From assembly GCF_035573695.1 (NCBI RefSeq), contig NZ_CP121694.1, positions 2,580,501-2,644,500 on the forward strand: a DNA stretch of 64,000 nucleotides. Direction: 5' to 3'. The notes beneath the pieces are model-generated. The model had not been told where the DNA came from. It searched no databases and was given only the letters and a program-made list of their open reading frames with translations. Both the position numbers and the translations under genes were made by a program. Of the stretch, positions 12,298 through 46,882 are shown one piece after another; the first letter of the stretch is position 1, and every line of letters begins with the position of its first letter. Source of the stretch: Metallumcola ferriviriculae (GTDB lineage Bacteria > Bacillota > JADQBR01).

Positions 12298-13001
12298 GAT
12301 TTTTCCTCCAAAATTTTGTTGAAACAATCAAACAGCGAGCCACACGGCAAATCGCATTGGCTTTGAATCTCCGCCAAGGTTCCATTTGCAGCAATATGGC
12401 CGTCCGATATCAACAACAAAGATCGGCAAATACGCTCGGCTACATCCAGTTGATGGGTCGAAACTAATATCCCGGCACCCCGCTCTCTTTCTTTCTCTAA
12501 CAGTTGAAGAAATTCTTTAATTGCCCGCGGGTCCAGACCCATAAATGGCTCGTCCACAATGTAAACATCAGGCTTAATTAAAAAACCAATGACCAACATA
12601 ACCTTTTGCTGCATGCCCTTTGAAAAGTTTGCCGGCATATGATTCTTTTCCTTACTTAAATGAAAAAGTTCCAGCAAATCTTCCGCGGTATTTTCAAATT
12701 CCCTTTTTTCCAAGCAATAAGCGGCCGCAACCAATTCCAAGTGCTCCCACAAAGTCAGCCTATCATACAGCACCGGCTGCTCCGGTACGTAAGCATAGTT
12801 TTTATTCAGCCCAACAAACTCTATATCGCAACGACCGGGCAGCAGACCCATTATAGTCTTCAAAATAGTGCTCTTTCCTGCTCCGTTTGGACCAATTAGC
12901 CCCAACATTTCACCGGAAAACAAGGAGAACCTGACGTCTTCCACTATTTTTTCTCTCCCCGGGTATCCGGCCTCTTTAATATCTACTCTTAAAAGTTCCA
13001 T
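12294..13001 (-). CDS. ecsA: ABC transporter ATP-binding protein, EcsA-like
   Basis: 235 residues from ATG 13001 (MELLRVDI), preferred over the upstream ATG because AGGAG lies 7 bp before it. Motifs: Walker A GPNGAGKST (about residue 36), Q-loop VPEQPVLYDRL, signature FSKGMQQK (degenerate LSGGQ, as common in EcsA), Walker B VYIVDEPFMGLD, and H-loop STHQ. It overlaps ecsB by 4 bp and so is co-translated with it. ATP hydrolysis by this subunit drives the EcsB permease. Confidence 0.88.
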   Translation of the reverse strand: MELLRVDIKEAGYPGREKIVEDVRFSLFSGEMLGLIGPNGAGKSTILKTIMGLLPGRCDIEFVGLNKNYAYVPEQPVLYDRLTLWEHLELVAAAYCLEKREFENTAEDLLELFHLSKEKNHMPANFSKGMQQKVMLVIGFLIKPDVYIVDEPFMGLDPRAIKEFLQLLEKERERGAGILVSTHQLDVAERICRSLLLISDGHIAANGTLAEIQSQCDLPCGSLFDCFNKILEEKS

Positions 13002-13133
13002 CGTTTTTCTCCTAACTAAAAACGCACTTATTAAATCATTCCTCATAATCAATTCTTTTTATTAGATGTTAATCCTCCTTAAAGCGACACATTACCTATA
13101 CTGGCTTCCCGCCCCCATGCTCTCTACAAACAA

Positions 13134-13178
13134 AATAACTTGACAAAAAGGTGCCTGACACCATTTTGTCAAGTTATT
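13134..13178. repeat. Dispersed palindromic repeat, GGTGCCTGACACC variant
   Basis: Arms AATAACTTGACAAAA and TTTTGTCAAGTTATT enclose GGTGCCTGACACC. A near-identical copy is at 14812-14856. It sits just beyond the end of the truncated carboxyltransferase fragment 13202-13513, and could act as a bidirectional terminator. Confidence 0.85.
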
Positions 13179-13201
13179 GGTCACCACCGGTGCCACTTTT
13201 T

Positions 13202-13513
13202 CTACCACGTGTCCACAAACGGAGGAATTTCCTTGCCGTTAAAATTAGGCGGCACTGACTTCAAGCCGCGCATGACCCATTTACGGGTATCTGCAGGGTC
13301 AATGACAGAATCGATTTCAAGATAAGATGCCATATTGGTTGCTTTCCCCATCTCGTAAGCTTGATCAAGCAAACGTTTATAAGCAGACTCCCGCTTGGCG
13401 GGATCTTCAATGGCTTCAAGTTCTTTTCTGTAGCCGTGCTTGACGGCTCCTTCAAGGCCCATGCCGCCAAATTCTCCTTTGCTCCCGAGACACAGATGCA
13501 GGACTTTCGGCAT
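13202..13513 (-). pseudogene. C-terminal fragment of an acyl-CoA carboxylase carboxyltransferase subunit
   Basis: The 103-codon frame reads GEFGGMGLEGAVKHGYRKEL (about residues 13-32), then NMASYLEIDSVIDPADTRKW, which is the C-terminus of the propionyl/methylmalonyl-CoA carboxyltransferase (Carboxyl_trans) family, normally about 510 residues. The first about 400 residues are missing. Together with the biotin carboxylase remnant and the acyl-CoA-ligase remnant upstream, it is the residue of an acyl-CoA carboxylation gene cluster. Confidence 0.85.
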
Positions 13514-13573
13514 TTTCTTCTATGAACCTGGTGTGAAAGTGATTTTCTCTAACTTCTGCTCTAGCTAAGAGGT

Positions 13574-14130
13574 TTAACAAAAAGGAATATTGGTTTTAAC
13601 GCCTTTGATGCGAAACTCTTTAAGAGTCCGGTAAGCTTTGGCAACCACATCCTTATACTCTGAAGTTCGTAAAGTGACAATTAATTTTGCCAGCAGCGAA
13701 TCGAAGGCCGGGTTTATCTCGTAGCCGCCATAGCCGTACCCGGCAGCAACGGTACATCCTGCTGTCGCGGCAGGGTACGGGCCTCTATTTTGTTACCAAA
13801 CAGCTGAAGGATATCCGGACGCGGGCCGATGAAGGTCAAACCTACTTCCGTACAGCGCTTGGCAAAAGTTACATTCTCACTTAAAAACCCATAGCCGGGA
13901 TGAATGGCATCACAACCCAACTCCTTTGCCGCGAAGATAATCTGCTCCGCATCAAGGTAGGCAGTTACTCCTTTTCCCTTTAACATAAAGGCCTCATCAG
14001 CAGAAACGACATGCAGTGATTTAGCATCGTCAGCGGGGTAGACAGCCACCGTCTGGATACCCAGATCCGCAGCCGCACGACTAATTCGGATTGCTATCTC
14101 ACCCCTGTTGGCAATAAGCATTTTCTTCAC
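13574..14130 (-). pseudogene. Biotin carboxylase remnant with large internal deletion
   Basis: The N-terminus from ATG 14130 (MKKMLIANRGEIAIRISRAA, then CDAIHPGYGFLSENVTFAKR) is the biotin carboxylase N domain. After about residue 130 (VPLLPGTAMAATR) it jumps, in another frame, to a C-terminal piece YEINPAFDSLLAKLIVT through EFRIKGVKTNIPF ending at 13574. The ATP-grasp domain with its catalytic residues (about 200 residues) is gone, so the enzyme cannot work. The parent would be the about 450-residue biotin carboxylase subunit of an acyl-CoA or pyruvate carboxylase. Confidence 0.85.
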
Positions 14131-14211
14131 TGTTCTATCGACCTCTTTCGTTATCTTTTAGTTTTAAAGAGTATTCGCTGTTTCAGCTTACAGTAGTTCG
14201 TATCTCATACA

Positions 14212-14735
14212 AAGTTGGCCGCTATTGAGCTTCTTTTAACAGCCTGCGAAGCACTTTGCCGGTGCCGGTCGCAGGCAGACTATCACGGAATTCTACAAAG
14301 CGAGGATATTTGTAAGCGGCCTTCTTTTCTTTAGACCAAGTAATAATGTCTTCAGCTGACACCTTGCCTTCCGCAAGGGCCGAATTTTATTTTTTCCGGG
14401 GGCATGATGGTATCACAAGTATGTGTTTCGCTAAGCCCATAAGATGCTTCATATAAATAACAGCCATTGGTAAGCTGTTTCCAGGCGTCTGACAATTCTT
14501 GATAATGAATAGGTCAGCTTGGTGGACACACCTTCCGGCCAATTTTGCAGCCAAAGCTTATCCAATTTTATTCCCCCCAATAAATCATTTGCATGAAAAT
14601 TTGCACAATTACAATTATACAATTATATTTATTGCAAGCCTTATGCCAAATACCGAAGCCGACATAGCTCAATAAATAGCGAACCATCCGCCCATTCGGT
14701 GCAATATTCCCACCGCTCGGTGCGGCGAAACACCC
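14212..14735 (-). pseudogene. Third, internally deleted copy of the AMP-forming acyl-CoA ligase
   Basis: 14212-14382 matches the 3' end of the intact ligase (18015 onward), including the C-terminal ATGTGKVLRRLLKEA codons. 14383-14490 matches the middle (FGSCG/DTIMPPEK region), and 14500-14735 matches the 5' end and upstream region of that gene. The connecting two thirds are missing. A block with GGTGCGGCGAAACACC follows, as it does near 19841. This is a degraded duplicate, not a gene. Confidence 0.82.
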
Positions 14736-14856
14736 AGCATAGCTTCAAAGGGAAGCCCGAGATGAATGACAGCAACTTTACCCACCAACTTCTATCGCAA
14801 CCATTTCCTGCAATAACTTGACAAAATGGTGCCTGACACCATTTTGTCAAGTTATT
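14736..14856. repeat. VanZ/ligase fragments ending in a GGTGCCTGACACC palindrome
   Basis: 14738-14775 copies the vanZ internal block at 9181-9220 (CAGCATAGCTTCAAAGGG). 14780-14820 copies the region 9300-9345. The palindrome at 14812-14856 has arms AATAACTTGACAAAA / TTTTGTCAAGTTATT around GGTGCCTGACACC. It lies 8 bp from the end of the O-antigen-ligase gene and may serve as its terminator. Confidence 0.8.
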
Positions 14857-14864
14857 TTAGCAAG

Positions 14865-17183
14865 TTATTTTAGTATTGGCAGGTCTTTGACGTACTGGTA
14901 CTGCTGCATAATTTGCGGATTTAGCTTCCCTGCTTGGTCCAGATACTTCTTAGCCTGTCCTGTATTACCCTCTTGTTCTGCAATTAGGGAGAGCCACATA
15001 TATGCTTCGCCATTTGTTTTCTTACTCTTTGTGGCCACAGTCAGCATTTCCTTAGCCTTTTCCCAGTTACCCAAGAAGTAATCACCGATACCTTCCTGGA
15101 GGCGGTTATAGTGGGTAGGCTGCAGCCGAGGATTGATACGCGTACCCCACAGTTTCTTTTCGGTCTCCGTCAGTGCCGCATATTTCTCGCTCATCTCATC
15201 CGGCATATCAGCCGCCTTTAGAAACACCTGATATGCTTGGGTCTGGTCACCTTTAGCGACCAGGTTTACCCCGGCAACCACGTAAAGGTGCTGTAGGTTA
15301 TCCCAATTACCCTTCATCCACGGCCCGTTTTCTACCGACTGCTCAGCCAAATCAAGCGCCTCAAATAGAAATCCTTCTCGCCAGGCAATATACGACGCTT
15401 CCTGGTAATTCCTTGGGTCGTGAGGGGATAGACTGACAGCTTTTTTTACTTCTTTAAGGCCCTCTTCTTTCTTACCGGTCATCATATTAAGCTTAGCCAT
15501 ATCAAGATGATAGCTGGGCTGCCACGGGTTAAACGTGGCGGCCTTATCAAAGTTGACCAAAGCAGTGTTATAGTTTTTCGCCTTAAAAGCATCTGATCCT
15601 CTCACTGCGTAGCTATTACCCAATAAAAGCATGGCAGACAGAGTAAAAGTAAAGAGGATAAACACAGCAAATACCGCCACATAGCGCATCTTCACTTGGG
15701 CAAACTTCTTCGCCGAAATGGGCAGAGGCTCGCCCACACGAAGTTTAGCCAAAGCCCGGGTAAAACCAAACATACTAAAAAGGACGATAGCAACGGCCGA
15801 TAAAGCTAAATCAAAGTCAATCAGGGCATGAACACCAAGCATTACCGCAGCAGCCACTATCGTCCACTGCAGCAGTTGGGTCTCAGTATCACCCTGACGA
15901 TAATTCTTCCACACCGTAAAGAAGAAGTAAAACCAAATGCCGATTAAGATTAATATTCCCACTGTACCAATTTCCGTCCACATCTGCAGCCAGTGATTGT
16001 GCACCTGAGTGGACGAATACCCATAGCTTTGAATGCGTCGATATGAAGATTCCCAAGCGCCGCCGCCCCAACCAAAAATGGGCCGCTCCTTTATCAGCTT
16101 AAAGCTATCCTTCATCCAATATATCCGGCTTAAAGTGGAATTATCCCCGGAGTTAATACTCTGAATACGCGTAAGAAATTTTTCCGGCATTACTTTCACC
16201 AAGATACTGTCTTCAGAAATTTCGCCCTGGTCAGCATTAACGACAATACTAGCTGCCATAAAAAGCCCAACCAGCGCAGCTATCATAACTGCTACACTGA
16301 CGAAAGCAACAAATTTATCTCGATCGGTAAACTTCCCGGCTATATCCAAGATAATCTGCCCGACCAAAGCTACCGCGAGACCCATAAAGAGCCAGCCCCA
16401 AGCACCGCCAAAGTCTTTTGCAAGTATCGAAGGAATAAGCTTAAAATTAGCCACAAAGGCGCCCAACATGACAAAACCCCAGTGATAGATGGTCCACCAG
16501 CGCTTTCTAAACCCTAAGAAAAATATCAGCACCGCAGGGATATATACCAAGAAACCGCCCCGGGAGTTGGTCGTTAATAAAACTATCAGTAAAAAATAAT
16601 TACCGGCGGTAAAAAGGTACTTCTGCCAAGTATTACCCTTATACCAGAGATATAATCCCAAGAAACTTACCGCCGCCAAGAGACTAGCGGTAGCATTAGC
16701 ATACTGCAATGTAGAAAATACCCGTCCGCTTACAAAGCCGTCTTTAATATTTATTGTCCCAACAGCAGTTAGAAACCCGGCTAATGCCACCCCTACTGCG
16801 CTGGTGTAAATCACCATCATGAGATAGCGAATTTTCTCTTTATCTTTACCCAAATTAGCCGCGAGCCAAAATATATATACATATAGCGCCATCTTGACAA
16901 TTTCTTGAACTGCCAGCTGGGCGGAAGCAGCACCAAAAGAAGCAATTATATAGGCCGCCAACAGGCCAAGGATATGATAGTCAAGCATGTTACGCATCAG
17001 AGAATAATCACGTTGACTGAGTTTCCATAAGTAAGTCAGCACCGCAATAATAGTGGCGCCCAGCAGTGCCCACGATTGTTCAACCGGGAAAAATAAGCCG
17101 CGAAAATATGATGGTAATAAAAGCAGAAAGCTGAAAAGCACAAAAGCGAACCAGTAATAACCGTTTTCCTTTATATGCGCCAT
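14865..17183 (-). CDS. O-antigen ligase / Wzy-family membrane protein with C-terminal TPR domain
   Basis: 772 residues. About twelve membrane segments span residues 12-470, followed by a soluble tail with tetratricopeptide-like repeats (YNTALVNFDKAATFNPWQP, EGLKEVKKAVSLSPHDPRN, AKEMLTVATKSKKTNGEAY). The Wzy_C signature region RPIFGWGGGAWESSYR, then QVHNHWLQMWTEIG (about residues 375-410) contains the conserved Arg and His typical of O-antigen ligases and polymerases. It may ligate or polymerise lipid-linked glycans at the membrane. It is a single gene bounded by repeats and not part of the capsule locus at 45-64 kb. Start ATG 17183. Confidence 0.85.
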   Translation of the reverse strand: MAHIKENGYYWFAFVLFSFLLLLPSYFRGLFFPVEQSWALLGATIIAVLTYLWKLSQRDYSLMRNMLDYHILGLLAAYIIASFGAASAQLAVQEIVKMALYVYIFWLAANLGKDKEKIRYLMMVIYTSAVGVALAGFLTAVGTINIKDGFVSGRVFSTLQYANATASLLAAVSFLGLYLWYKGNTWQKYLFTAGNYFLLIVLLTTNSRGGFLVYIPAVLIFFLGFRKRWWTIYHWGFVMLGAFVANFKLIPSILAKDFGGAWGWLFMGLAVALVGQIILDIAGKFTDRDKFVAFVSVAVMIAALVGLFMAASIVVNADQGEISEDSILVKVMPEKFLTRIQSINSGDNSTLSRIYWMKDSFKLIKERPIFGWGGGAWESSYRRIQSYGYSSTQVHNHWLQMWTEIGTVGILILIGIWFYFFFTVWKNYRQGDTETQLLQWTIVAAAVMLGVHALIDFDLALSAVAIVLFSMFGFTRALAKLRVGEPLPISAKKFAQVKMRYVAVFAVFILFTFTLSAMLLLGNSYAVRGSDAFKAKNYNTALVNFDKAATFNPWQPSYHLDMAKLNMMTGKKEEGLKEVKKAVSLSPHDPRNYQEASYIAWREGFLFEALDLAEQSVENGPWMKGNWDNLQHLYVVAGVNLVAKGDQTQAYQVFLKAADMPDEMSEKYAALTETEKKLWGTRINPRLQPTHYNRLQEGIGDYFLGNWEKAKEMLTVATKSKKTNGEAYMWLSLIAEQEGNTGQAKKYLDQAGKLNPQIMQQYQYVKDLPILK

Positions 17184-18024: not shown

Positions 18025-19683
18025 TTATTGAGCTTCTTTTAACAGCCGGCGAAGCACTTTGCCGGTGCCGGTCGCAGGCAGACTATCACGGAATTCTACA
18101 AAGCGAGGATATTTGTAAGCGGCCATCTTTTCTTTAGACCAAGTAATAATGTCTTCAGCTGACACCTTGCCTTTAAAATCCTGCTTCAGCACGATAAATG
18201 CTTTGACACTTTCACCACGTCTTGAATCGGGCACGCCAATAACACCCGCTTGCAGAACAGCCGGGTGCTTTATTAACATCGCCTCCACATCTTCAGGAAA
18301 AACGCTGTACCCAGAGCATTTAATCATTTCTTTGACCCTGCCAATGAAGTAGAGATAACCATCTTGATCAATCATGCCAATATCACCGGTGTAAACCCAG
18401 CCATCTTTAAGCGTTTCATCAGTGGCTTGGGGACGATTAAAATATCCTTTAAATACCCCGGGATTTTTAATCACTATTTCTCCCTGTTCACCTGGCGGCA
18501 GCGGGTCTCCGGTCTCCGGGTCCAAAATCTTAACTTCAGTATCGAAGGTAGGGATTCCGCAAGAGCCGAATTTTATTTTTTCCGGGGGCATGATGGTATC
18601 ACAAGTATGTGTTTCGCTAAGCCCATAAGATGCTTCATATAAATAACAGCTATTGGTAAGCTGTTTCCAGGCGTCTGACAATTCTTGATTTACCGGAAAG
18701 CCAAAACTTGTACACAAATTCAATTTAAGACTGCTCAAGTCACGTTTTTCAATGCCAGGATAACCCAATAGTTCCCCATTCATGGGTGCTATACTATACC
18801 AAAAGTCACATTGATACTTTTCGATGGCCGTTACTACTGCCTGAGCATCGTAACGGGTTAACATCACAGTAGTCATGCCGCTGTAAACAGGAATATTTAC
18901 CCCCATCACCATACCCGCGATATGAAATATGGGCATTACAGTAAGACCCATTTTGAGTTTTTCCGATTGGTTTCCATGAAAAGCAGCTGCAGTCTTAAAA
19001 AGAGCATTACCATAAGTGAGCATGGCTCCTTTGGGTCTGCCGGTGGTGCCGGAGGTATAAACGAATAAAGCTACGTCATCCCAAAGATTGATTTCATCGC
19101 TCTGAAGCTGTGCGCTATGCTCTTTGACAGCTTGCAACAGGTCTGTTGTATCGTCAAATAGTTTCTTTTCAAGTATTATTTCTTCAGGCACCGGCAGGGT
19201 GGGTTCTTCGGGAATAAAGTCTGCGTAATTGGTAGTTACAACTAATTCAAGAGTAGGCATCTTATCCCTTACGTTGGCAACAATGGGGTAAAGGTCCTGG
19301 GCCGCCACCACTGCTTTCGCTCCCATATCGTTTATTTCGTATTCCAATTCCCATTCTTTAAACATGGGGCTGATGGGGCCGACAATTGCTCCCAGCTTTT
19401 GCACTGCATAATGAGCAATGATGTATTGAGGACAGTTTTGCATAAACAGTCCTACCCGGTCACCCTTAACAATCCCCTTGCTTTTTAGAAAATTGGCAAA
19501 CCTATTTACATAATGCTCCAGTTCTTTCCAAGAAATTTCTGTACCATAATAGATATACGCAATGGTTTCCGGTTTATCCAGAGCGTTTTGGGTTAGATAC
19601 TGGTGTAAAGGCTTTTCTCCTAATCGATAGGTCAGCTTGGTGGACACACCTTCCGGCCAATTTTGTAGCCAAAGCTTATCCAA
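18025..19683 (-). CDS. AMP-forming acyl-CoA synthetase (long-chain fatty-acid-CoA ligase type)
   Basis: 552 residues using the TTG at 19683 (GGGGGG lies 7 bp upstream); the upstream ATG at 19731 has no ribosome site. ANL-family motifs: A3 YTSGTTGRPKGAM (about residue 195), A5 YGLSETHTCD, A7 YTGDIGMIDQDGYLYFIGR, A8 KEMIKCSGYSVFPEDVE, and the catalytic Lys of A10 in PATGTGKVLRR. It would activate a carboxylic acid to its CoA thioester via the acyl-AMP. The substrate is not evident; synthetases of this form in syntrophic or sulfate-reducing Bacillota often act on fatty or aromatic acids. Parts of the gene are copied at 26844-27972 and 14212-14735. Confidence 0.92.
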   Translation of the reverse strand: MDKLWLQNWPEGVSTKLTYRLGEKPLHQYLTQNALDKPETIAYIYYGTEISWKELEHYVNRFANFLKSKGIVKGDRVGLFMQNCPQYIIAHYAVQKLGAIVGPISPMFKEWELEYEINDMGAKAVVAAQDLYPIVANVRDKMPTLELVVTTNYADFIPEEPTLPVPEEIILEKKLFDDTTDLLQAVKEHSAQLQSDEINLWDDVALFVYTSGTTGRPKGAMLTYGNALFKTAAAFHGNQSEKLKMGLTVMPIFHIAGMVMGVNIPVYSGMTTVMLTRYDAQAVVTAIEKYQCDFWYSIAPMNGELLGYPGIEKRDLSSLKLNLCTSFGFPVNQELSDAWKQLTNSCYLYEASYGLSETHTCDTIMPPEKIKFGSCGIPTFDTEVKILDPETGDPLPPGEQGEIVIKNPGVFKGYFNRPQATDETLKDGWVYTGDIGMIDQDGYLYFIGRVKEMIKCSGYSVFPEDVEAMLIKHPAVLQAGVIGVPDSRRGESVKAFIVLKQDFKGKVSAEDIITWSKEKMAAYKYPRFVEFRDSLPATGTGKVLRRLLKEAQ

Positions 19684-19791
19684 TTTTATTCCCCCCAATA
19701 AATTATTGCATGAAAATTTGCACAATTGCAATTACAACTATACAACTATATTTATTGCAAGCCTTATGCCAAATACCGAAGCCGACATAGC

Positions 19792-20606: not shown

Positions 20607-20745
20607 TCGAGTAGCTAGAAGTCGGGAATAATTTCCCGGCTTCTTTGCTCTCACAGAACCGGACTTACGTTTGCCGTATCCGACTCCTGCAGGCACCGTC
20701 CTCTGTTTATGTTCCCCAACCCAACTAGGTCCTCCCGAATCTTCC
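20607..20745 (-). mobile_element. Group II intron-like fragment
   Basis: On the minus strand the segment contains AAGTCCGGTTCTGTGAGAG, a G+C-rich hairpin (AAGCCGGGAAATTATTCCCG) and CTAGCTACTCGAT. These features recur in the structured RNA near the intron-encoded-protein insertion point of bacterial group II introns. No reverse transcriptase is present. It is wedged between the DUF4160 remnant and the 3' end of dprA, whose last residues may be derived from it. Confidence 0.5.
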
Positions 20746-21852: not shown

Positions 21853-23391
21853 CTAAAGCACCATCATGCTTGCCCCTTCCTTTTCTAAGTCTCTGGCCAT
21901 TAGGGCCGCCGCCACATCCTTTTTCCTGATCTTAGCAGAACCCGCCATGTCAGCAAAGGTCCTTGCAACCTTTAAATACTTGTGAAAGGTTCTGGCGCTA
22001 TATGCGAACCGGTCATAGGCCAACTGCAGCAGCCTTTGTCCCTCTTCCTCCAATTGGCAGTATTCTTTAATGAGGGCATGTCCCATTTGACCGTTATTAT
22101 TTACACCTGTTATCTTCTTAAATCTATTTTTCTGAATACTTCTGGCAGATTCAACCCTCTCTCGCAGCTCCTGAGAGCTTTTTCCCGAGAAGTCGCTTGA
22201 TAGATCAATGAAATTAACGGGCTGAACATATTTTTGAATATCCATCCTGTCTAATATCGGGCCTGATAATCGCTGTCTGTATTTTATGACCTCATAATCA
22301 GTACATCGACATTTGCTTTTACCGTAATAACCACAGGGACAAGGATTCATAGCAGCCACCAGCATAAAACTTGCAGGGTAAGTATTGTTGTATTTTACCC
22401 TGGAGATGGTAACCTGTTGATCTTCCATCGGCTGTCTTAATGCGTCCAGTGTTTTCTTGCTGAACTCAGCAATTTCATCTAAGAATAATACCCCATTATG
22501 AGCCAAGGATATTTCGCCTGGGTTGGCATCGTTTCCTCCCCCGATTAAAGCATTGGTAGATGCATTATGGTGGGGAGCACGAAATGGGCGATCCATAATT
22601 AAATGTCCCTTGCCCTTCAAAAGTCCAGCCACACTATAGATTTTTGTTGTTTCCAACGCCTCTTCCTCTGTCATGCTAGGTAGGATAGTGGGAATACGTT
22701 TGGCAATCATAGACTTTCCACAGCCTGGAGTGCCAATCATCAGCAAATTATGTCCCCCAGCTGCTGCCACAACGATATATTCAATCATCGCCTCTTGCCC
22801 TTGGACTTCTTTAAAATCCACCGGATAGATGCTTTCTTCAGGTGCAGTAAAATTTGCTTCAGGCTGAATATTATAGTCTCCTTCACCCTCTAAAAATTCG
22901 ACCACTTCTCTTAAGGTATTAAAACCAACCACATTGATTCCCTTAACCAAGGAAGCCTCATGTATACTTTCTCTGGGTACGATGATATTTTTAATCCCTG
23001 CTTTTTTAGCAGCGATAACCATCGGCAGTACCCCGGTGCAGTTCCGGAGCCGTGCATTCAAGGATAACTCGCCAATACACCCAAAATCTTTCCATCTCTT
23101 TATATCAAGCTGCTCCGTTTCCAATAAAAGTCCTAATGCAATGGGTAAATCAAAATGAGAGCCGCTTTTTTTTAAATCACTGGGAGCCAAGTTGATTACG
23201 ATCTTCATCTCGGGAAAGTTAAATTGTCCGTCACGCAGGGCAGCTTCTACCCTTTCCCTTGCTTCTTTTACGGCCGTATCTCCCAGCCCGACAATAACAA
23301 TCAGGGGCATCCCTTCTATGGTTTTTGTCTCTACATCTACTAAATAGCCGTCTACACCTGAGATAGCAAAGCTTTTTACAATAGAAGCCAT
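21853..23391 (-). CDS. comM: YifB/ComM-type Mg-chelatase-like AAA+ ATPase
   Basis: 512 residues. N-terminal Lon-substrate-like domain (SFAISGVDGYLVDVETKTIE), the AAA+ core with Walker A IGTPGCGKSMIAK (about residue 220) and Walker B GVLFLDEIAEF (about residue 300), the CPCGYYGKSKCRCT metal-ligand-like cluster, and a C-terminal Mg_chelatase_C domain (SARTFHKYLKVARTFADMAG). ComM is a hexameric helicase promoting branch migration in natural transformation. Length is typical (about 510). It is the first gene of comM-dprA. Its first about 10 codons and upstream region are copied at 28017-28084. Confidence 0.93.
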   Translation of the reverse strand: MASIVKSFAISGVDGYLVDVETKTIEGMPLIVIVGLGDTAVKEARERVEAALRDGQFNFPEMKIVINLAPSDLKKSGSHFDLPIALGLLLETEQLDIKRWKDFGCIGELSLNARLRNCTGVLPMVIAAKKAGIKNIIVPRESIHEASLVKGINVVGFNTLREVVEFLEGEGDYNIQPEANFTAPEESIYPVDFKEVQGQEAMIEYIVVAAAGGHNLLMIGTPGCGKSMIAKRIPTILPSMTEEEALETTKIYSVAGLLKGKGHLIMDRPFRAPHHNASTNALIGGGNDANPGEISLAHNGVLFLDEIAEFSKKTLDALRQPMEDQQVTISRVKYNNTYPASFMLVAAMNPCPCGYYGKSKCRCTDYEVIKYRQRLSGPILDRMDIQKYVQPVNFIDLSSDFSGKSSQELRERVESARSIQKNRFKKITGVNNNGQMGHALIKEYCQLEEEGQRLLQLAYDRFAYSARTFHKYLKVARTFADMAGSAKIRKKDVAAALMARDLEKEGASMMVL

Positions 23392-23461
23392 ACGATGCCC
23401 CCCCTATTCACACTGCTTTTTACCTAATATATCCTATTTTATCAATTACTTGAATATTTTA

Positions 23462-24307
23462 CTAGTGTTTTAGCTTCTCATACATCTTATAAACAGCTGC
23501 TTCGCTAATAGATATGTTTTCTCCAATTTCTTTCATAGTATAATTGGCAGCTAAGGATTTATTGATATATGCTTGTTTATAATGGGTAAGATGTCTTTTC
23601 CGTGAGGCATTTTTTATCTCTTTGAAAATAGCGTTGTCCTGTGTCACTTCAAACAGTATTTCATCTAGACTTTTTCTTTGAATTTCCGCAAGAGGTTTAT
23701 TAATTATAGTTTTTTGGTTTCCACCTATAAACAGGCCTTCTTCAAAGATACTGCCTTCCTCCATCTCATCCATATCCATAAATTTTTCATAAGCTTTAAT
23801 GGCCTCTTGCCGATTTTCAGAAAATATGTTCAAGATAAAATCTATGTCTACGATGTCTCCGCGCTTATTTCTTCTATAATATGGGTCGCTACTCCAGCGA
23901 TAGTCTTTTGCTTTCTTACACATCTTCGCCCTCACCGGATTTTGATGGATATACCGCAGCAAAGATAAAAGATATTTATTATCTTTCACTAAAATTCCTT
24001 TATATCTATTTTCAAAAACATGTCCCGTTCTTCCATTTATGTAGTTATAGAATTTACTGTATTTATTGTTTATCCGGTGCATGATATCCTGCAATGGTGC
24101 CTCCAATGTCTTCAGCACAAAATGGTAGTGATTATCCATTAGGACGAACCCATAAAACTCAAAATTCATGATTAGTTTATATTCCTTTACCAGTTCCAGC
24201 AAATATACTTTATAATCTCTATTCTCAAATATGTACTCTCGGTTATTCCCTCTTTGAATAATGTGATATACCCCACCCTTATACTCTATCCTCGGTTTCC
24301 GTCCCAA
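23462..24307 (-). CDS. REP-associated tyrosine transposase (RAYT), copy 1
   Basis: 281 residues from TTG 24307 (GGAGG lies 10 bp upstream). Y1_Tnp domain: RIEYKGGVYHIIQRGNNR at the start, the HUH motif in GFVLMDNHYHFVLKT (about residue 60), and YIHQNPVRAKMCKKAKDYRW (about residue 120) holding the region that precedes the conserved Trp. A C-terminal HTH-like segment (YTMKEIGENISISEAAVYKM) is present. RAYTs nick single-stranded DNA beside REP palindromes and are thought to spread them. A GTGCCTGGCAC palindrome lies 60 bp upstream (24357-24387). A nearly identical copy is at 28125-28970. Confidence 0.88.
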   Translation of the reverse strand: MGRKPRIEYKGGVYHIIQRGNNREYIFENRDYKVYLLELVKEYKLIMNFEFYGFVLMDNHYHFVLKTLEAPLQDIMHRINNKYSKFYNYINGRTGHVFENRYKGILVKDNKYLLSLLRYIHQNPVRAKMCKKAKDYRWSSDPYYRRNKRGDIVDIDFILNIFSENRQEAIKAYEKFMDMDEMEEGSIFEEGLFIGGNQKTIINKPLAEIQRKSLDEILFEVTQDNAIFKEIKNASRKRHLTHYKQAYINKSLAANYTMKEIGENISISEAAVYKMYEKLKH

Positions 24308-24356
24308 TGAAAAACCACCTCCCAGTATCATCTTACCAGAAAGTGGTATCAGTTAC

Positions 24357-24435
24357 AATAAGTTAATAAGTTAAGTGCCTGGCACCGCTTTTCGCTCGCT
24401 TTTCGCTCACCGCTTTTCGCTCACCGCTTTTCGCT
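24357..24435. repeat. GTGCCTGGCAC palindrome with a four-fold stutter
   Basis: The lead AAGTTAATAAGTTAAG is followed by the palindrome GTGCCTGGCAC, then by four successive copies of CGCTTTTCGCT, two of them preceded by CAC. It stands in the 5' flank of RAYT copy 1 and ends in a non-coding stretch. The seven-fold A/T lead plus palindrome recurs at 26787, 29020, 32723, 37862 and 39568, each with its own stutter. Confidence 0.9.
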
Positions 24436-26786: not shown

Positions 26787-26843
26787 AATAAGTTAATAAG
26801 TAAAGTGCCTGGCACCGTTCTCTTTGTCACCGTTCTCTTTGTT
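26787..26843. repeat. GTGCCTGGCAC palindrome with a two-fold stutter
   Basis: The lead AATAAGTTAATAAGTAAAG and the palindrome GTGCCTGGCAC are followed by CACCGTTCTCTTTGT twice in tandem, then directly by the acyl-CoA-ligase duplicate starting at 26844. It marks the left edge of the 2.2-kb duplicated mosaic. Confidence 0.9.
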
Positions 26844-27972
26844 ATAATGTCTTCAGCTGACACCTTGCCTTTAAAATCCTGCTTCAGCACGATAAATGCT
26901 TTGACACTTTCACCACGTCTTGCATCGGGCACGCCAATAACACCCGCTTGCAGAACAGCCGGGTGCTTTATTAACATCGCCTCCACATCTTCAGGAAAAA
27001 CGCTGTACCCAGAGCATTTAATCATTTCTTTGACCCTGCCAATGAAGTAGAGATAACCATCTTGATCAATCATGCCAATATCACCGGTGTAAACCCAGCC
27101 ATCTTTAAGCGTTTCATCAGTGGCTTGGGGACGATTAAAATATCCTTTAAATACCCCGGGATTTTTAATCACTATTTCTCCCTGTTCACCTGGCGGCAGC
27201 GGGTCTCCGGTCTCCGGGTCCAAAATCTTAACTTCAGTATCGAAGGTAGGGATTCCGCAAGAGCCGAATTTTATTTTTTCCGGGGGCATGATGGTATCAC
27301 AAGTATGTGTTTCGCTAAGCCCATAAGATGCTTCATATAAATAACAGCTATTGGTAAGCTGTTTCCAGGCGTCTGACAATTCTTGATTTACCGGAAAGCC
27401 AAAACTTGTACACAAATTCAATTTAAGACTGCTCAAGTCACGTTTTTCAATGCCAGGATAACCCAATAGTTCCCCATTCATGGGTGCTATACTATACCAA
27501 AAGTCACATTGATACTTTTCGATGGCCGTTACTACTGCCTGAGCATCGTAACGGGTTAACATCACAGTAGTCATGCCGCTGTAAACAGGAATATTTACCC
27601 CCATCACCATACCCGCGATATGAAATATGGGCATTACAGTAAGACCCATTTTGAGTTTTTCCGATTGGTTTCCATGAAAAGCAGCTGCAGTCTTAAAAAG
27701 AGCATTACCATAAGTGAGCATGGCTCCTTTAGGTCTGCCGGTGGTGCCGGAGGTATAAACGAATAAAGCTACGTCATCCCAAAGATTGATTTCATCGCTC
27801 TGAAGCTGTGCGCTATGCTCTTTGACAGCTTGCAACAGGTCTGTTGTATCGTCAAATAGTTTCTTTTCAAGTATTATTTCTTCAGGCACCGGCAGGGTGG
27901 GTTCTTCGGGAATAAAGTCTGCGTAATTGGTAGTTACAACTAATTCAAGAGTAGGCATCTTATCCCTTACGT
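26844..27972 (-). pseudogene. Acyl-CoA ligase fragment (second copy, both ends missing)
   Basis: Collinear with 18146-19274 of the intact ligase without net indels over 1129 bp, and with only a few substitutions seen (for example Ser to Ala in PDSRRG). It lacks the N-terminal about 136 residues and the C-terminal about 40 residues including the A10 Lys. The open frame 26777-27958 survives because the copy is recent. It cannot be a complete ligase. Confidence 0.93.
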
Positions 27973-28016
27973 GCTGTTTTGCTCTGTTTTGCTCTGTTTT
28001 ACACCGTCCTCTGTTT
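27973..28016. repeat. Stutter junction between two duplicated segments
   Basis: The junction reads GCTGTTTT, then GCTCTGTTTT twice, then ACACCGTCCTCTGTTTT, with shared CTGTTTT units. It joins the acyl-CoA-ligase fragment (left) to the comM 5' fragment (right). The palindrome core itself is absent, but ACACCG with CTCTGTTTT resembles the tail of the other copies. Confidence 0.85.
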
Positions 28017-29051
28017 TACACCTGAGATAGCAAAGCTTTTTACAATAGAAGCCACACGATGCCCCCCTATTCCCACTGCTTTTTACCTAATATATCCTAT
28101 TTTATCAATTACTTGAATATTTTACTAGTGTTTTAGCTTCTCATACATCTTATAAACAGCTGCTTCGCTAATAGATATGTTTTCTCCAATTTCTTTCATA
28201 GTATAATTGGCAGCTAAGGATTTATTGATATATGCTTGTTTATAATGGGTAAGATGTCTTTTCCGTGAGGCATTTTTTATCTCTTTGAAAATAGCGTTGT
28301 CCTGTGTCACTTCAAACAGTATTTCATCTAGACTTTTTCTTTGAATTTCCGCAAGAGGTTTATTAATTATAGTTTTTTGGTTTCCACCTATAAACAGGCC
28401 TTCTTCAAAGATACTGCCTTCCTCCATCTCATCCATATCCATAAATTTTTCATAAGCTTTAATGGCCTCTTGCCGATTTTCAGAAAATATGTTCAAGATA
28501 AAATCTATGTCTACGATGTCTCCGCGCTTATTTCTTCTATAATATGGGTCGCTACTCCAGCGATAGTCTTTTGCTTTCTTACACATCTTCGCCCTCACCG
28601 GATTTTGATGGATATACCGCAGCAAAGATAAAAGATATTTATTATCTTTCACTAAAATTCCTTTATATCTATTTTCAAAAACATGTCCCGTTCTTCCATT
28701 TATGTAGTTATAGAATTTACTGTATTTATTGTTTATCCGGTGCATGATATCCTGCAATGGTGCCTCCAATGTCTTCAGCACAAAATGGTAGTGATTATCC
28801 ATTAGGACGAACCCATAAAACTCAAAATTCATGATTAGTTTATATTCCTTTACCAGTTCCAGCAAATATACTTTATAATCTCTATTCTCAAATATGTACT
28901 CTCGGTTATTCCCTCTTTGAATAATGTGATATACCCCACCCTTATACTCTATCCTCGGTTTCCGTCCCAATGAAAAACCACCTCCCAGTATCATCTTACC
29001 AGAAAGTGGCATCAGTTACAATAAGTTAATAAGTTAAGTGCCTGGCACCGC
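28017..29051. repeat. Duplicate of 23353-24388 (comM 5' end, RAYT and palindrome)
   Basis: Starts at the shared TACACCTGAG, covers the first about 13 codons of comM and its promoter region, the whole RAYT gene and the GTGCCTGGCAC palindrome, and ends at GGCACCGC. One base is missing in a C run (28065 area) and a few substitutions are seen. The boundary at the palindrome fits a transposition unit ending there. Confidence 0.93.
28125..28970 (-). CDS. REP-associated tyrosine transposase (RAYT), copy 2
   Basis: 281 residues, encoding the same protein as copy 1 (23462-24307), with the HUH motif DNHYHFVL and C-terminal HTH. Start TTG 28970 with GGAGG upstream. The gene lies 50 bp from the palindrome at 29020-29050. 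A complete second copy inside a duplicated segment shows that RAYT here moved or was copied within the chromosome, unlike the usual single-copy behaviour of RAYTs. Confidence 0.88.
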   Translation of the reverse strand: MGRKPRIEYKGGVYHIIQRGNNREYIFENRDYKVYLLELVKEYKLIMNFEFYGFVLMDNHYHFVLKTLEAPLQDIMHRINNKYSKFYNYINGRTGHVFENRYKGILVKDNKYLLSLLRYIHQNPVRAKMCKKAKDYRWSSDPYYRRNKRGDIVDIDFILNIFSENRQEAIKAYEKFMDMDEMEEGSIFEEGLFIGGNQKTIINKPLAEIQRKSLDEILFEVTQDNAIFKEIKNASRKRHLTHYKQAYINKSLAANYTMKEIGENISISEAAVYKMYEKLKH

Positions 29052-29115
29052 CTCTTCCCGCCTCTTCCCACCGCCTCTTCCCAATCGCCTCTTCCAATCA
29101 CCGCCTCTTCCAATC
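29020..29115. repeat. GTGCCTGGCAC palindrome with a five-fold stutter
   Basis: Lead and palindrome as in copy 24357, followed by CGCCTCTTCC five times, with linkers C, CAC, CAATC and CAATCAC between units. This is the longest stutter in the window. It ends at CAATCAAAACAGGCTCC, about 90 bp before the end of the Abi_2 gene. Confidence 0.9.
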
Positions 29116-29201: not shown

Positions 29202-30071
29202 TTATATAGACCTAAGCAAATGCTCCCATTTTTCTGGGAAGCCCATCAGTTCTACATCTACTTTTTCATATTGGTCGATTAAAGCACGTAAATTAGTTAC
29301 AAAAGTGCCCCATTCAATGTTATCTTTTATGAGTTTTCCCATGATCAATATAAGTGAGAACACTGTATCATTTTTTATATCTTTTGCTAAATCTTTTTTA
29401 TGAAGCATTGGTTTGATGGTTAAGGTTCGATTGTAAATCCTTCCAAAATGAGCACAAATGTTCCTAAATGTAGACAACGCATGAAGCCAGCTTCTAATAT
29501 ACTTATATGGAATTTTACAATATGTAATGGCAATTTCCAATTTATCTTCATTCTTTAGATTTGAATAAATTTTAGAAAGTAAACCAAAAGACACTACTTC
29601 TATAGCCACCCAAACTGGGAAAACACCTTTATATTTACTCTTATGATGCTTAATAAAAAGCTCATCGCTTCTATCTATTTCAAGATAAAGCTTGTCCATC
29701 AACTCTACATGAATCTTTTTAGTGATAAAATTTTCTGGGTTCATGTAGCCAGTTGCCCCATATTTATGAGCAATTAAATATGCAATATGAGTTCGGAAGG
29801 TGACCTCTATGGTTTCCAGCAATCCCATAATCAAATTACGTAACTTTTTATCAAACTCGTAAAGATTATAGATATCACTAAAAGAAACCCCATCTTGAAA
29901 TTTATTATCGGCCTTATAAGTAAGCATGTAAGCACTTAGCCGGTAATAATTAATTCTGCCAAGGATTTCTCTTGCCTGCTGTTCATCCTCTATCTGCAGG
30001 TTTCTTTCTTTTAATATATCTACCTGTTCTTGAAAGGTTGTAGGTTCCTTAATTCTATCACCATTATCCAT
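29202..30071 (-). CDS. Abi_2 (AbiD/AbiF-like) abortive infection protein
   Basis: 289 residues. Abi_2 pattern: TFQEQVDILKERNLQI at the N-terminus, INYYRLSAYMLTY (about residue 40), YEFDKKLRNLIMGLLETIEV (about 72), and the HEPN-type RNase motif RNICAHFGRIYNR (about residue 200; R-X4-H). It likely acts as an RNase that arrests infected cells; this is known for the family, not shown here. ATG at 30071. No antitoxin-like partner is adjacent, in keeping with many Abi_2 genes. Repeats flank it on the 3' side. Confidence 0.88.
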   Translation of the reverse strand: MDNGDRIKEPTTFQEQVDILKERNLQIEDEQQAREILGRINYYRLSAYMLTYKADNKFQDGVSFSDIYNLYEFDKKLRNLIMGLLETIEVTFRTHIAYLIAHKYGATGYMNPENFITKKIHVELMDKLYLEIDRSDELFIKHHKSKYKGVFPVWVAIEVVSFGLLSKIYSNLKNEDKLEIAITYCKIPYKYIRSWLHALSTFRNICAHFGRIYNRTLTIKPMLHKKDLAKDIKNDTVFSLILIMGKLIKDNIEWGTFVTNLRALIDQYEKVDVELMGFPEKWEHLLRSI

Positions 30072-30150
30072 ATTGTTTTATTTCTCCATAAATTAAATGA
30101 CCCACCGTGGTACGCATTGTTAAGAGGCGTGATGGGTACTGTTAATGTAA

Positions 30151-30305
30151 TAATACATCCACCGCCATTATTTGTCAATGCTTTTCAATCAAATCAATCT
30201 AACGCTTTAAAAAGCAGTAAGGTCTAACCCTTTGTAACCTTTATTTCCAAATTCATCATTAGATCTAACAAAGACAAGGTATCCTGATGTGCCGTTATGC
30301 AGTCT
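30151..30305. repeat. 155-bp direct repeat, left copy
   Basis: TAATACATCCACCGCC through GCCGTTATGCAGTCT. It is repeated, apparently without mismatch, at 32317-32471. The end of the block (GATGTGCCGTTATGC) resembles the IS21-type end at 52205-52225, so it includes old IS21 end sequence. The pair brackets the IS1634-type transposase. Confidence 0.9.
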
Positions 30306-32316: not shown

Positions 32317-32471
32317 TAATACATCCACCGCCATTATTTGTCAATGCTTTTCAATCAAATCAATCTAACGCTTTAAAAAGCAGTAAGGTCTAACCCTTTG
32401 TAACCTTTATTTCCAAATTCATCATTAGATCTAACAAAGACAAGGTATCCTGATGTGCCGTTATGCAGTCT
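32317..32471. repeat. 155-bp direct repeat, right copy
   Basis: Second copy of 30151-30305. It is far longer than any IS target duplication. It suggests either that the transposase sits between two copies of an older element's end or that the segment was duplicated with the insertion. Confidence 0.9.
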
Positions 32472-32529
32472 GGACGCCGCCGAAATATGCAGCCTGGCAC
32501 CGCCCTGTCTCCAACAAACCCGCCAAGCT

Positions 32530-32708
32530 CAAATTTCATTATCGCTTTATATTCCTTAATCAATTCCAACAAATATGCTTTATCATCTTTATTCCCAAAT
32601 ATATACTCCCGGTTATTTCCTCTTTGTCTTTATGCATATACTCATAATGCTCTATCCTCGGTTTCCGCCCCAATGAAAAACCACCTTCCGGTTCCATTCT
32701 ACCAGAAA
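32530..32708 (-). pseudogene. RAYT 5' remnant
   Basis: Minus strand from 32708 matches the RAYT start region (GGTGGTTTTTCATTGGG, then codons for LELIKEYK and IMKFEL), with deletions and frame breaks. The upstream palindrome is at 32723. A third RAYT copy has decayed here. Confidence 0.8.
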
Positions 32709-32722
32709 GTGGTATTATTCGC

Positions 32723-32807
32723 AATAAGTTAATAAGTTAAGTGCCTGGCACCGTCTCTTGGCACCGTCTCTATTGCAGCCGTATTGCAGCCGCACCGTCT
32801 CTATTAT
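32723..32807. repeat. GTGCCTGGCAC palindrome with a mixed stutter
   Basis: Lead and palindrome, then CACCGTCTCT three times interleaved with ATTGCAGCCGT / ATTGCAGCCG twice. The next unit is the istB C-terminal fragment from about 32810. The palindrome again stands between a RAYT 5' end and a foreign truncated gene. Confidence 0.9.
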
Positions 32808-37861: not shown

Positions 37862-38050
37862 AATAAGTTAATAAGTTAAGTGCCTGGCACGCAGCTTCTC
37901 TGCTACACGCAGCTTCTCTGCTAAACCTTGCTCAGTGGGAATCCCACCCACTATATGATATGCCCTTATCTTGACGCACTGCCTGGCACCGTCTCTACGT
38001 TTCACGCTCTTCTTTCAAAATTGATAAGTTAGTGCCTGGCACCAGCTCTC
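37862..38050. repeat. Cluster of GTGCC repeats and stutters
   Basis: 37862-37922: lead, GTGCCTGGCAC and two copies of ACGCAGCTTCTCTGCT. 37979-37996: second core TGCCTGGCACCGTCTCT. 38021-38050: third core AAGTTAGTGCCTGGCACC. The DNA between the first two is half of a 72-bp direct repeat (37920-37991, other copy 39353-39424). Confidence 0.88.
37920..37991. repeat. 72-bp direct repeat, copy 1
   Basis: From GCTAAACCTTGCTCAGTGGG to GCCTGGCACCG, ending in the palindrome core. It matches 39353-39424 with one difference (G/A in GATATGCCC). In copy 2 it directly follows group II intron debris, so the block is probably the outer edge of that element joined to the palindrome. Confidence 0.88.
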
Positions 38051-38716: not shown

Positions 38717-38947
38717 TTAATAAGTTGATAAGTTGGTACCGCATGGGCATGGTTCATTTCTGCTGATTTTCTTGCTCTTGGCCTGTCCACCGGGAATACT
38801 TCTTAAGTATGGAACTCCATCACTAGGAAGAGGTCGTAAATTAGACTTTTCCACCTTACTATGTAGCTCATCAGGCGTGTGTCCGTTGTTCTCCCACAGC
38901 CTCGTATTGTTGGCAAGCTCCAAACAAATCAGGAAATTCCTCTTCAT
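38717..38947 (-). pseudogene. Fragment with a truncated SEC-C motif
   Basis: 76 codons, of which LWENNGHTPDELHSKVEK and the C-terminal KKISRNEPCPCG look protein-like. RNEPCPCG is the first half of the SEC-C zinc motif (normally followed by GKKYKKCC), but it stops at the dispersed repeat lead (ACTTATCAAC, 38719-38730). The N-terminal side abuts intron debris. It is the tail of a larger SEC-C protein. Confidence 0.65.
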
Positions 38948-38949
38948 TA

Positions 38950-39350
38950 TTCACCACATGCCTTAGAATTGCCTTCCCTCCACGGGAGTTACCCCGCTTC
39001 CTCGGTACTATGCAGTCATCCGACTCCCTGCTGCATTGGACTGCCTTACTTTGTTATCGCTTGGTTAGTCCTACTTCCTCTGGGTGAAGAGCGAACAGGG
39101 TCTCTCAAGTTGACTGTATCATATCAATGTGTAGCATGCCAAGGTCACCGACCCCGGGGAAGCCTGCATATTCTCGCTTAGCGAATATGCAGGTGTTGTT
39201 TTCTACTCAGGCAACAGTATCAACCTTCCCGATGGGTATTTCGGGGCTCAATCCCTTCAGCATTTGCGAATCGCTTTCGGCCTGCTACCTCACTGTCTAC
39301 GCTTAACATCATAAGTTACCCGATGATGTCCAAGACTCGCTATGAGTGGT
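38950..39350 (-). mobile_element. Group II intron remnant (RNA part only)
   Basis: On the minus strand the segment ends with GGCAGTCCAATGCAGCAGGG, GAGTCGGATGACTGCATAG and CCCGTGGAGGGAAGG, the block that precedes the reverse-transcriptase ORF in many bacterial group II introns. Upstream is a long perfect hairpin CCTGCATATTCGC / GCGAATATGCAGG (about 39164-39192). No reverse transcriptase follows: the next sequence is the SEC-C fragment. Domain boundaries cannot be set by eye. Confidence 0.6.
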
Positions 39351-39352
39351 TT

Positions 39353-39424
39353 GCTAAACCTTGCTCAGTGGGAATCCCACCCACTATATGATATACCCTT
39401 ATCTTGACGCACTGCCTGGCACCG
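39353..39424. repeat. 72-bp direct repeat, copy 2
   Basis: Copy of 37920-37991 with one mismatch, ending in GCCTGGCACCG. It sits between the intron remnant and the RAYT 5' remnant. Confidence 0.88.
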
Positions 39425-39435
39425 CCTCTGTTCTC

Positions 39436-39545
39436 TGAACTCCCGGTTATTTCCTCTTTGAATAACGTGATAAACCCCACCCTTGTACTCTATCCTCGGT
39501 TTCCGTCCCAATGAAAAACCACCTCCGGTTCCATTCTACCAGAAA
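39436..39545 (-). pseudogene. RAYT 5' remnant
   Basis: Minus strand from 39545 matches the RAYT upstream region and first about 27 codons (GRKPRIEYKGGVYHVIQRGN-like). It breaks off after the codons for NNRE. The palindrome at 39568 is in the same position relative to the start as in both intact copies. Confidence 0.85.
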
Positions 39546-39567
39546 GTGGTATCATGGTATCATTCGC

Positions 39568-39625
39568 AATAAGTTAATAAGTTAAGTGCCTGGCACCGCC
39601 TTTCACCTGGTTCACCTGGTTCACT
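39568..39625. repeat. GTGCCTGGCAC palindrome with a stutter fused to an IS3 end
   Basis: Lead AATAAGTTAATAAGTTAAG, palindrome GTGCCTGGCAC, then CCTTTCACCTGG, TTCACCTGG and CTGGTTCAC units that merge into the IS3 right end (39616-39666). Confidence 0.88.
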
Positions 39626-39666
39626 TAGAAAATTAAAATTTCTGTCTTGACAAGGGGGACACTTTA
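39616..39666 (+). mobile_element. Solo right end of the IS3 element
   Basis: 51 bp from CTGGTTCACTTAG to GACACTTTA, identical to the last 51 bp of the three complete IS3 copies. The rest of the element is missing and the left side is the stutter 39568-39625. Confidence 0.92.
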
Positions 39667-41983: not shown

Positions 41984-42288
41984 ATTATCACACTTTCTTC
42001 TTGGCATTAAAGTGTCCCCCTTGTCAAGACAGAAATTTTAATTTTCTAAGTGAACCAGATATTCCCATTTAGTAGCAGCAATAACGATGCTATTAGTTGC
42101 CTCTTTTGAAATGATTTTATCGTCGTCGTAAACTTTAGACCAGTCGCCGAGGCTGTGGAGAGTGTGGACAACACGGTTTTTGTTGTCCAAGCCTTGTGCG
42201 TCAACCTGGAGCGTAGCGGAGGGTTGTCCACATGGCGGCACTATCCATCAGCCTACTTGACTTTGATATACGATATGTCTTGCTATTA

Positions 42289-43176
42289 TTAAGCTGCCTT
42301 GCTTATCCCCAGATAGACTTCTTGAGGAGTTAGGTAGTCATGGGTTTGATGTGGCCGTTCTATATTATATTCTTGGATATATTCTCTAATACCGATCCTT
42401 AGGTCTCTAGGTGTTAGATATTCATGTGTGTAGATTTGTTCGGTTTTTAGACTTCTAAACCATCGCTCTATGATAACATTATCAATCCAACGGGCCTTGC
42501 CGTCCATGCTTTGTCTGATGTTCACGCTCTTTAAATATTCTGTGTAATCAGCGCTTGTGAACTGAGACCCCTGATCGCTGTTGATAATTTCCGGCGTGCC
42601 GTATCTGTTGATAGCTTCTTTAACTGCTGCTAACACCGGTGCGGTGTCCAAAGTATCTGATAGTTCCCAGCCTACTATGTAACGACTATACCAGTCGATG
42701 ACGGCTGTTAGATACATATGACTTCTGCCCATCTTAATGTAGGTAATGTCAATGGCCCAAACCTGGTTTGCCCGATTAATATCTAGGTTTCTTAACAGGT
42801 AAGGATAGATTTTGTGCTGCTTATTACGCTTTGACAGGTTGGGTTTAGGATAGACCGCATATATTCCCATTTCGTCCATATAGCGTTTAATTAACTTACG
42901 GCCAACCTTAATGTGGTCTTCATTCTGTAGCTTTTTGCGAAGCTTCCTAACCCCTAGATATGGCATCTTGGTATGCCAGTAATCAAGCCTGTTTTTAATC
43001 ATATTTTCGCGCTCTCTGTCAGGTTCTTTAGGTGTGTAATAAAAACTGGTTCTATTGATCTCAAGTAACTGGCATTGCCGATTAACCGGCAGTTTGTTAT
43101 TTTTTGAAACCAGACTTATTCTCCCAGTCGACCCCAAGAACTTCTTTAGATTTTTTTTTGAGCCAGTCATTCTCAA
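42289..43176 (-). CDS. IS3-family transposase OrfB (copy 2)
   Basis: Encodes the same 295-residue rve integrase as copy 1, with the DDE residues in WAIDITY, INSDQGS and IIERWFR intact. It overlaps orfA (43097-43432) in a frame +1 to it. The apparent start is TTG. Confidence 0.92.
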   Translation of the reverse strand: MRMTGSKKNLKKFLGSTGRISLVSKNNKLPVNRQCQLLEINRTSFYYTPKEPDRERENMIKNRLDYWHTKMPYLGVRKLRKKLQNEDHIKVGRKLIKRYMDEMGIYAVYPKPNLSKRNKQHKIYPYLLRNLDINRANQVWAIDITYIKMGRSHMYLTAVIDWYSRYIVGWELSDTLDTAPVLAAVKEAINRYGTPEIINSDQGSQFTSADYTEYLKSVNIRQSMDGKARWIDNVIIERWFRSLKTEQIYTHEYLTPRDLRIGIREYIQEYNIERPHQTHDYLTPQEVYLGISKAA

Positions 43177-46784: not shown

Positions 46785-46882
46785 TATAATGTACCCATGA
46801 ATTCAGACAAAATTTTCGACAAACTAAGTGAACCTGATATAATAAACGGCAGGAAAACTGTCAGAAAGAAGGTTCATACAAA

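Follow-up and report, generated by a model that had tools for sequence, protein, structure and literature searches.

A mosaic gene duplication beside a class 2 HUH transposase, and signs of local, same-strand copying from its hairpin repeat

How did part of the interior of an acyl-CoA ligase gene come to be joined to a complete transposase gene, in a patchwork that lies only a few kilobases from both of its sources? The window in which we followed this question is a 64,000-nucleotide stretch (bases 2580501-2644500) of the 3,720,236-bp single-contig genome of Metallumcola ferriviriculae, a Clostridia-type Bacillota. Self-BLAST of the window resolved a chimera of ~2.2 kb into two blocks. Block A (26841-27972, minus strand) shares 99.7% identity with 18143-19274 and derives from the interior of the acyl-CoA ligase gene at 18025-19731 (minus strand, with AMP-binding domains), both gene ends being absent, whilst block B (28017-29051, minus strand) shares 99.6% identity with 23353-24388 (minus strand) and carries the start of comM, a spacer, the transposase gene and a hairpin repeat. 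The sources are separated by 4,078 bp and the copy retains their strand and order, as an earlier note on this DNA had claimed (sources ~4.1 kb apart), although the fusion to the 5' end of comM that it described extends to just 39 nt of coding sequence (source 23353-23391). The alignments contain 2 differences in 1,129 positions for block A (26844-27972 vs. 18146-19274), and three substitutions and one indel in 1,035 for block B (28017-29051 vs. 23353-24388); in divergence the two are statistically indistinguishable (Fisher p = 0.72), so the two blocks appear equally old, and we rejected a mosaic built over several eras, as no age difference between them was detected. Self-comparison found no IS ends flanking 26787-29112, where the hairpins on both sides share one orientation, and the chimera has neither terminal inverted repeats nor a target-site duplication around it, the hallmarks of a conventional IS. 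Unequal block ages or a normal IS at the boundaries, which the note had named as evidence against its own reading, were thus both absent. Next to the chimera lies an Abi_2 (AbiF-like) gene (29202-30136) with an abiF RNA (RF03085) directly upstream.

All three joints of the chimera carry short stutters. At the left, a hairpin repeat (REP1, 26787-26815, plus strand), which is probably older than the chimera, runs into two copies of a 15-bp unit, CACCGTTCTCTTTGT, identified by a tandem repeat finder (26813-26842, plus strand). At the right, a second hairpin repeat (REP2, 29020-29048, plus strand), which self-BLAST shows to have come along with block B, is followed by ~five overlapping units built on CACCGCCTCTTCC (29046-29111, plus strand). 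Both outer boundaries are therefore a palindrome with stutter, as first described. The middle boundary (27973-28022, plus strand), which had been described as a stutter without palindrome, does stutter, with a 10-bp unit present ~2.7 times and further pieces, but it also holds a half-palindrome with its tail: the sequence CACCGTCCTCTGTTT at 28002-28016 is a 15-nt exact match to 20694-20708 (plus strand), with a chance expectation of ~0.005 by our own estimate (128,000 positions, ~45 start points, 4^15). As 20694-20708 is itself a half-hairpin with tail, situated on the same strand in the interval that separates the sources, the chimera is collinear with its template region, with skips: 18143-19274, 20694-20708, 23353-24388. 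A microhomology or templated patch of the kind found at MMBIR-like joints is thus present at the middle joint as the 15-nt patch, and the other joints have short shared bases.

The right stutter can be tiled entirely into substrings of a single joint, GGCACC-GCCTCTTCC-AATCAAAACAGG, a pattern like that left by repeated copying of a short stretch adjacent to the hairpin. Stutters at 24383, 26813, 37888 and 39594 likewise tile from one joint each, the exception being 32746-32805, where tiling requires extra sequence. An exact tandem duplication (period >=7) lies within 50 nt to the right of the palindrome at 6 of 11 sites, against 1.3% of random window 50-mers. Generic slippage at hairpins was considered as the sole cause and rejected: 24 of the 30 listed palindrome sites belong to other families and have no stutter, with one exception, a 13-bp unit present twice (14848-14873) by a 45-bp palindrome.

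The enzyme encoded in block B belongs to the HUH tyrosine transposases. Its source gene (23462-24331, minus strand, 289 aa; PF01797, 5e-10) is intact, as is the copy (28125-29012, minus strand, 295 aa from an earlier start). The motifs DNHYHF and YIHQNP are present, with the H-Y-H (HYH) and NP residues invariant in nine relatives, and the NCBIfam RAYT model NF047646 matched across its whole length with 74.3 bits, below its cut-off of 80. The Y---Q context of class 1 IS200/IS605 enzymes is replaced by Y---NP, the published signature of class 2 TnpAY1 (PMC6006769), by which the predicted protein is a class 2 Y1 HUH transposase of the RAYT/TIRYT kind. The C-terminus is conserved, with weak HTH-like matches (YlxM, E 3.5e-4; UPF0122, 0.019; Sigma70_r4, 0.02), and by motifs and this HTH-like C-terminus, rather than by placement in a tree, the protein resembles subclass 2.1, for which published surveys report REP-like hairpins to be absent and the TIRYT members of which are described with inverted repeats (PMC3733652, PMC6006769). 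An inverted repeat downstream of the transposase gene occurs in the relatives L115, L116, L118 and G017, and is absent in the present genome.

The hairpin of the element, AATAAGTTAATAAGTTAAGTGCCTGGCACC, is concentrated around the transposase. Searching with AAGTTAAGTGCCTGGCACC and allowing <=3 mismatches recovered 11 copies in the 3.72-Mb genome, 10 of them in a 28.6-kb part of this window and without exception on the plus strand (scan estimate for local clustering ~1e-17); with 10 of 11 copies local, a genome-wide spread of this repeat was rejected. Most copies are followed by a CTCTT-like tail and then a stutter; the stutter units of the repeat by the source gene (24357-24435, plus strand) are CACCGCTTTTCGCT. 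The tail consensus is CACC-G-N-CTCTT (26 tails drawn from G001 and the present genome, including one antisense artefact), and CTCT occurs within 14 nt in 20 of the 26 tails against a background of 5.6%. The tails differ between a source hairpin and its recent copy, which implies that the tail belongs to the target rather than to the element and that each joint was made anew. The foot of the hairpin reads TTAAG / AAGTTAA, whilst the GT[AG]G foot tetranucleotide of RAYT-associated REPs is not found. REPs are numerous, spread genome-wide and often arranged as inverted pairs; here there are 11 copies, 10 of them local and on one strand. TnpAREP cuts single-stranded REP at a CT on either the 3' or the 5' side of the hairpin; the cut generates a 3'-OH together with a 5' phosphotyrosine, and the hairpin foot probably guides which site is chosen (PMC8266576). 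Both the CTCTT tail and the AAG in the foot of the present hairpin would be compatible with such cleavage.

Further palindromes share a GTGCCTGGCACC core; these represent different families, occur throughout the genome on either strand and are without stutter. Among the palindromes of this genome are also 45-bp near-perfect ones with a GGTGCC..GGCACC core, at 13134-13178, at 14812-14856 and genome-wide (L026-L055) on both strands, a repeat family distinct from the transposase hairpin and without a known mover.

The chimera is not the only duplication in the window to be tied to this hairpin. We counted six dispersed duplicated pieces, excluding IS copies and an IS target repeat: in five of the six, the first base lies 14-29 nt rightward of a hairpin arm, and four of the six stop 2-8 nt past one. 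The chance of >=5 such starts with random ends is ~2e-8, for a set and a test that were drawn up after the pattern had been seen. Among the parts of the window are an older truncated transposase piece (32525-32805, plus strand), which begins 25 nt past a half-hairpin at 32492 and ends at a hairpin with stutter; a hairpin followed by an 18-bp unit present twice and a copy of 39352-39429, comprising an intron 5' end and half-hairpin (37862-37997, plus strand); and a half-hairpin with a truncated transposase piece that ends at a hairpin, followed by a stutter and a 51-bp IS-end fragment (39413-39666, plus strand). The sixth piece, an older copy of the ligase gene (14212-14734), neither starts nor ends at a hairpin. 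Pieces and sources share 82%, 87%, 97% or 99.7% identity, so the process has recurred. That most duplicated pieces in this window start at a palindrome tail had escaped the earlier note.

Several other features of the window deserve description. The older ligase copy has two internal deletions and no hairpin repeat nearby; at one of its joints an A-to-G change completes a small hairpin, CCTTGC..GCAAGG, and the other has a 7-nt insertion. A group II intron remnant without an ORF (~38738-39407; RF02005 at 39142-39377) seemingly lies inside a hairpin-repeat copy, and its 5' end with the half-hairpin is copied at 37919-37996. Three near-identical 1.5-kb repeats (2124-3658, 42006-43540 and 46783-48307) are probably IS, and a 51-bp end fragment of this repeat is found at 39616-39666, directly past a hairpin stutter. 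An IS1634-family transposase (NF033559, 30442-32214) is flanked by identical 155-bp direct repeats (30151-30305 and 32317-32471), long target duplications being usual for IS1634.

To place the locus among other genomes, we reached those of other species via the transposase and counted exact GTGCCTGGCAC matches; the nearest comparison genomes are related to this one at the level of bacterial family only, and, among the genomes compared, isolate Soudan_17 (a Bacillota genome assembled from a metagenome) is the closest relative to carry the hairpin repeat. Clusters near the transposase comprised six copies in 15.5 kb (G398, five on one strand), four in 2.2 kb (G399, all four on one strand), four in 3.8 kb (G400, all four), four in 9.8 kb (G401, three) and seven in 2.3 kb (G402, five). 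G008 has eight related hairpins, confined to a single strand and to 19.4 kb, with no transposase found within the 24 kb examined. When one copy of each cluster was set aside as the reference, 32 of the remaining 36 hairpins were co-oriented. Local clustering and strand bias therefore recur in other Clostridia; in G017 the repeat is genome-wide and on both strands, so that local spread is frequent rather than universal.

Other details of the anatomy are more restricted. Strong stutter was found only in this genome and, to a lesser degree, in G001; the idea that it typifies the transposase family at large gained no support, since outside bacterial family f1 the exact test found it in just 1 of 33, with inexact or short cases scattered in L114, L118 and L121. 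In G001, one hairpin tail is immediately followed by a 702-bp host duplication, and another by an intron-end fragment that carries a half-hairpin (L081). One truncated piece in L155 lies within the tail of the next hairpin, whereas those in L152, L154 and L156 are not clearly in a tail, nor are the duplicated pieces of G398, G399 and G400 clearly beside one. Internally deleted transposase copies occur in L155 and L167; in L167 (from G017) a transposase gene bounded at either end by inverted hairpins (12816-13830) is accompanied by an internally deleted, MITE-like derivative (18514-18791). A separate stretch, L160 (contig C31 of G251), carries five hairpin copies on the same strand and a 3,369-bp duplication (1-3369 = 11273-14641, 99.9% identity) with several smaller overlapping repeats.

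The anatomy to be explained thus comprises a fixed hairpin end on most pieces with a variable far end, copies that stay close and almost invariably keep one strand, skips along a collinear template, stuttered joints beside the hairpin, and a position for most pieces in the window just past older hairpin tails. We read the chimera as one product of a local, strand-keeping spread by a class 2 HUH element through nick-primed, template-switching copying, a reading to which we assign a probability of about one half. The transposase would nick at the hairpin/CTCTT junction and the free 3'-OH would be extended on nearby same-strand DNA, slipping several times beside the hairpin to give the stutter; copying would then jump along the template (19274, 20694-20708, 23353) before the product is joined back at the site. 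Synthesis could have run from the REP1 tail to REP2, or could have begun at the target and passed outward through REP2, in the manner of target-primed copying; its direction and the polymerase belong, like the nick and the primer, to what we infer. Nick-primed, template-switching copying would explain the whole anatomy in one mechanism, although the strong stutter, being nearly confined to one bacterial family, may reflect a repair habit of the host rather than a part of the mechanism. The equal divergence of the two blocks, the fresh tail at each joint, a CTCTT tail that fits the published CT cleavage 3' of REP and, in G001, the host or intron fragments just past hairpin tails speak for this reading; the pieces of G398, G399 and G400 that do not clearly adjoin a tail, the genome-wide, two-stranded repeat of G017 and the lack of a transposase in the examined 24 kb of G008 speak against it. 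The contig does not start at dnaA and GC skew is -0.16 on the plus strand; gene strand and skew suggest that the strand with the transposase sense sequence is the lagging-strand template here. The genome also encodes Ku, and end joining (NHEJ) may seal the ends, yet it does not predict the hairpin-linked pattern.

Much of the same anatomy could be explained in several steps by ordinary HUH single-strand transposition, in which a one-ended piece enters a hairpin tail as its preferred target and is later altered by internal deletions and replication slippage. The constant spacing between CTCTT/AAGAG and the hairpin does resemble a target preference, relatives retain inverted repeats flanking the gene where this copy has no downstream one, and internally deleted transposase copies do occur in L155 and L167. 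We nevertheless consider this account somewhat unlikely, as the separate steps that it needs sit poorly with blocks A and B that appear equally old, the 24 other listed palindromes give no sign of general hairpin slippage, and the tight clustering on one strand is not explained by transposition itself.

Less probable still, in our judgement, is template switching at a replication fork independent of the transposase (MMBIR-like), with the hairpin serving merely as a stall site. Local, same-strand, collinear skips with an inserted patch typify template switching, and the ligase copy at 14212-14734, with its two deletions and 7-nt insertion, arose with no hairpin nearby; however, longer palindromes elsewhere in the genome have no stutter, the ends of the pieces coincide with CTCT-bearing hairpin tails, and the clusters recur near the transposase in other genomes.

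The preference of the earlier note for a template switch over an ordinary IS is upheld in part, by the equal ages, the collinearity, the single strand and the 15-nt patch, whilst it had overlooked the role of the transposase and its local hairpin, and the switching itself we infer; judged on sequence, the chimera is better seen as a product of the HUH transposase family than of a free template switch.

Copying by a group II intron reverse transcriptase through template jumping is very improbable: the genome has six reverse-transcriptase domains and an intron remnant lies inside one hairpin repeat of the window, but the copied blocks are without intron ends and the pattern tracks the hairpin and transposase, in other genomes too. 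An assembly artefact, for which nothing but the complexity of the region speaks, is the least credible account, as the 3.72-Mb genome is a single contig, the copies differ by several bases and like anatomy is found in independently assembled genomes; the region is a real, recurrent structure.

In the open-access literature searched, we found no description of local one-strand REP spread or of the stutter. The dissemination mechanism of REPs has been described as poorly understood, cleavage and strand transfer having been shown in vitro (PMC8266576). Copies that stay by the gene, on one strand, with new tails and host DNA, form a footprint able to separate models of copying, and this footprint connects local duplications and mosaic fragments of genes with this class of enzyme. 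The local clustering suggests that the family spreads by error-prone local copying, in which the copying step would be the conjectural part.

Comparison with known systems shows a partial likeness to each. With TIRYT/TnpAY1 subclass 2.1 (TIRtrons; PMC3733652, PMC6006769) the element shares the class 2 Y1 core, a C-terminal region that weakly resembles an HTH, a patchy distribution and, in several relatives, inverted repeats around the gene; published surveys of that subclass found no REP-like hairpins, whereas here a hairpin repeat is present in many local one-strand copies with stuttered joints, so that hairpin repeats adjoin an enzyme resembling a subclass for which a published survey reported none. 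RAYT/TnpAREP and REP systems (E. coli, Stenotrophomonas, Marinomonas; PMC8266576, PMC2817692) likewise pair an HUH gene with cognate hairpins and a CT by the hairpin, but REPs form genome-wide inverted pairs, whilst here there is no GTAG foot, the copies are few, local and on the same strand, and host DNA is carried along. IS200/IS605 elements (IS608, ISDra2) share the Y1 HUH chemistry, the hairpin ends and a target sequence by one end, yet they move one defined single-stranded element with a Y---Q enzyme, in contrast to the variable far end, stuttering joints and Y---NP found here. In one-ended rolling-circle transposition (IS91, ISCR and Helitrons), an HUH enzyme acts on one fixed and one variable end and captures flanking genes. 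Fixed and variable ends and gene capture are thus common to both, but the present copies are local, same-strand, stuttered and collinear with skips, and the enzyme is of another family. MMBIR/FoSTeS also yields a patchwork of nearby templates with microhomology and short templated patches, although here the switch points follow the hairpin tails of one transposase family. Finally, non-LTR retrotransposons use target-primed copying, with a fixed start end that bears short tandem additions and a variable truncation of the far end. The fixed end with tandem additions and the variable truncation are shared, whilst neither an RNA template nor an element-encoded reverse transcriptase is implied here. 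That an HUH transposase spreads by nicking at a hairpin and copying from the 3' end in place, with slippage and jumps, rather than by moving a finished element, is a generalisation that we offer tentatively; if true, it would be a DNA-level counterpart of target-primed copying, locally duplicating and shuffling pieces of host genes.
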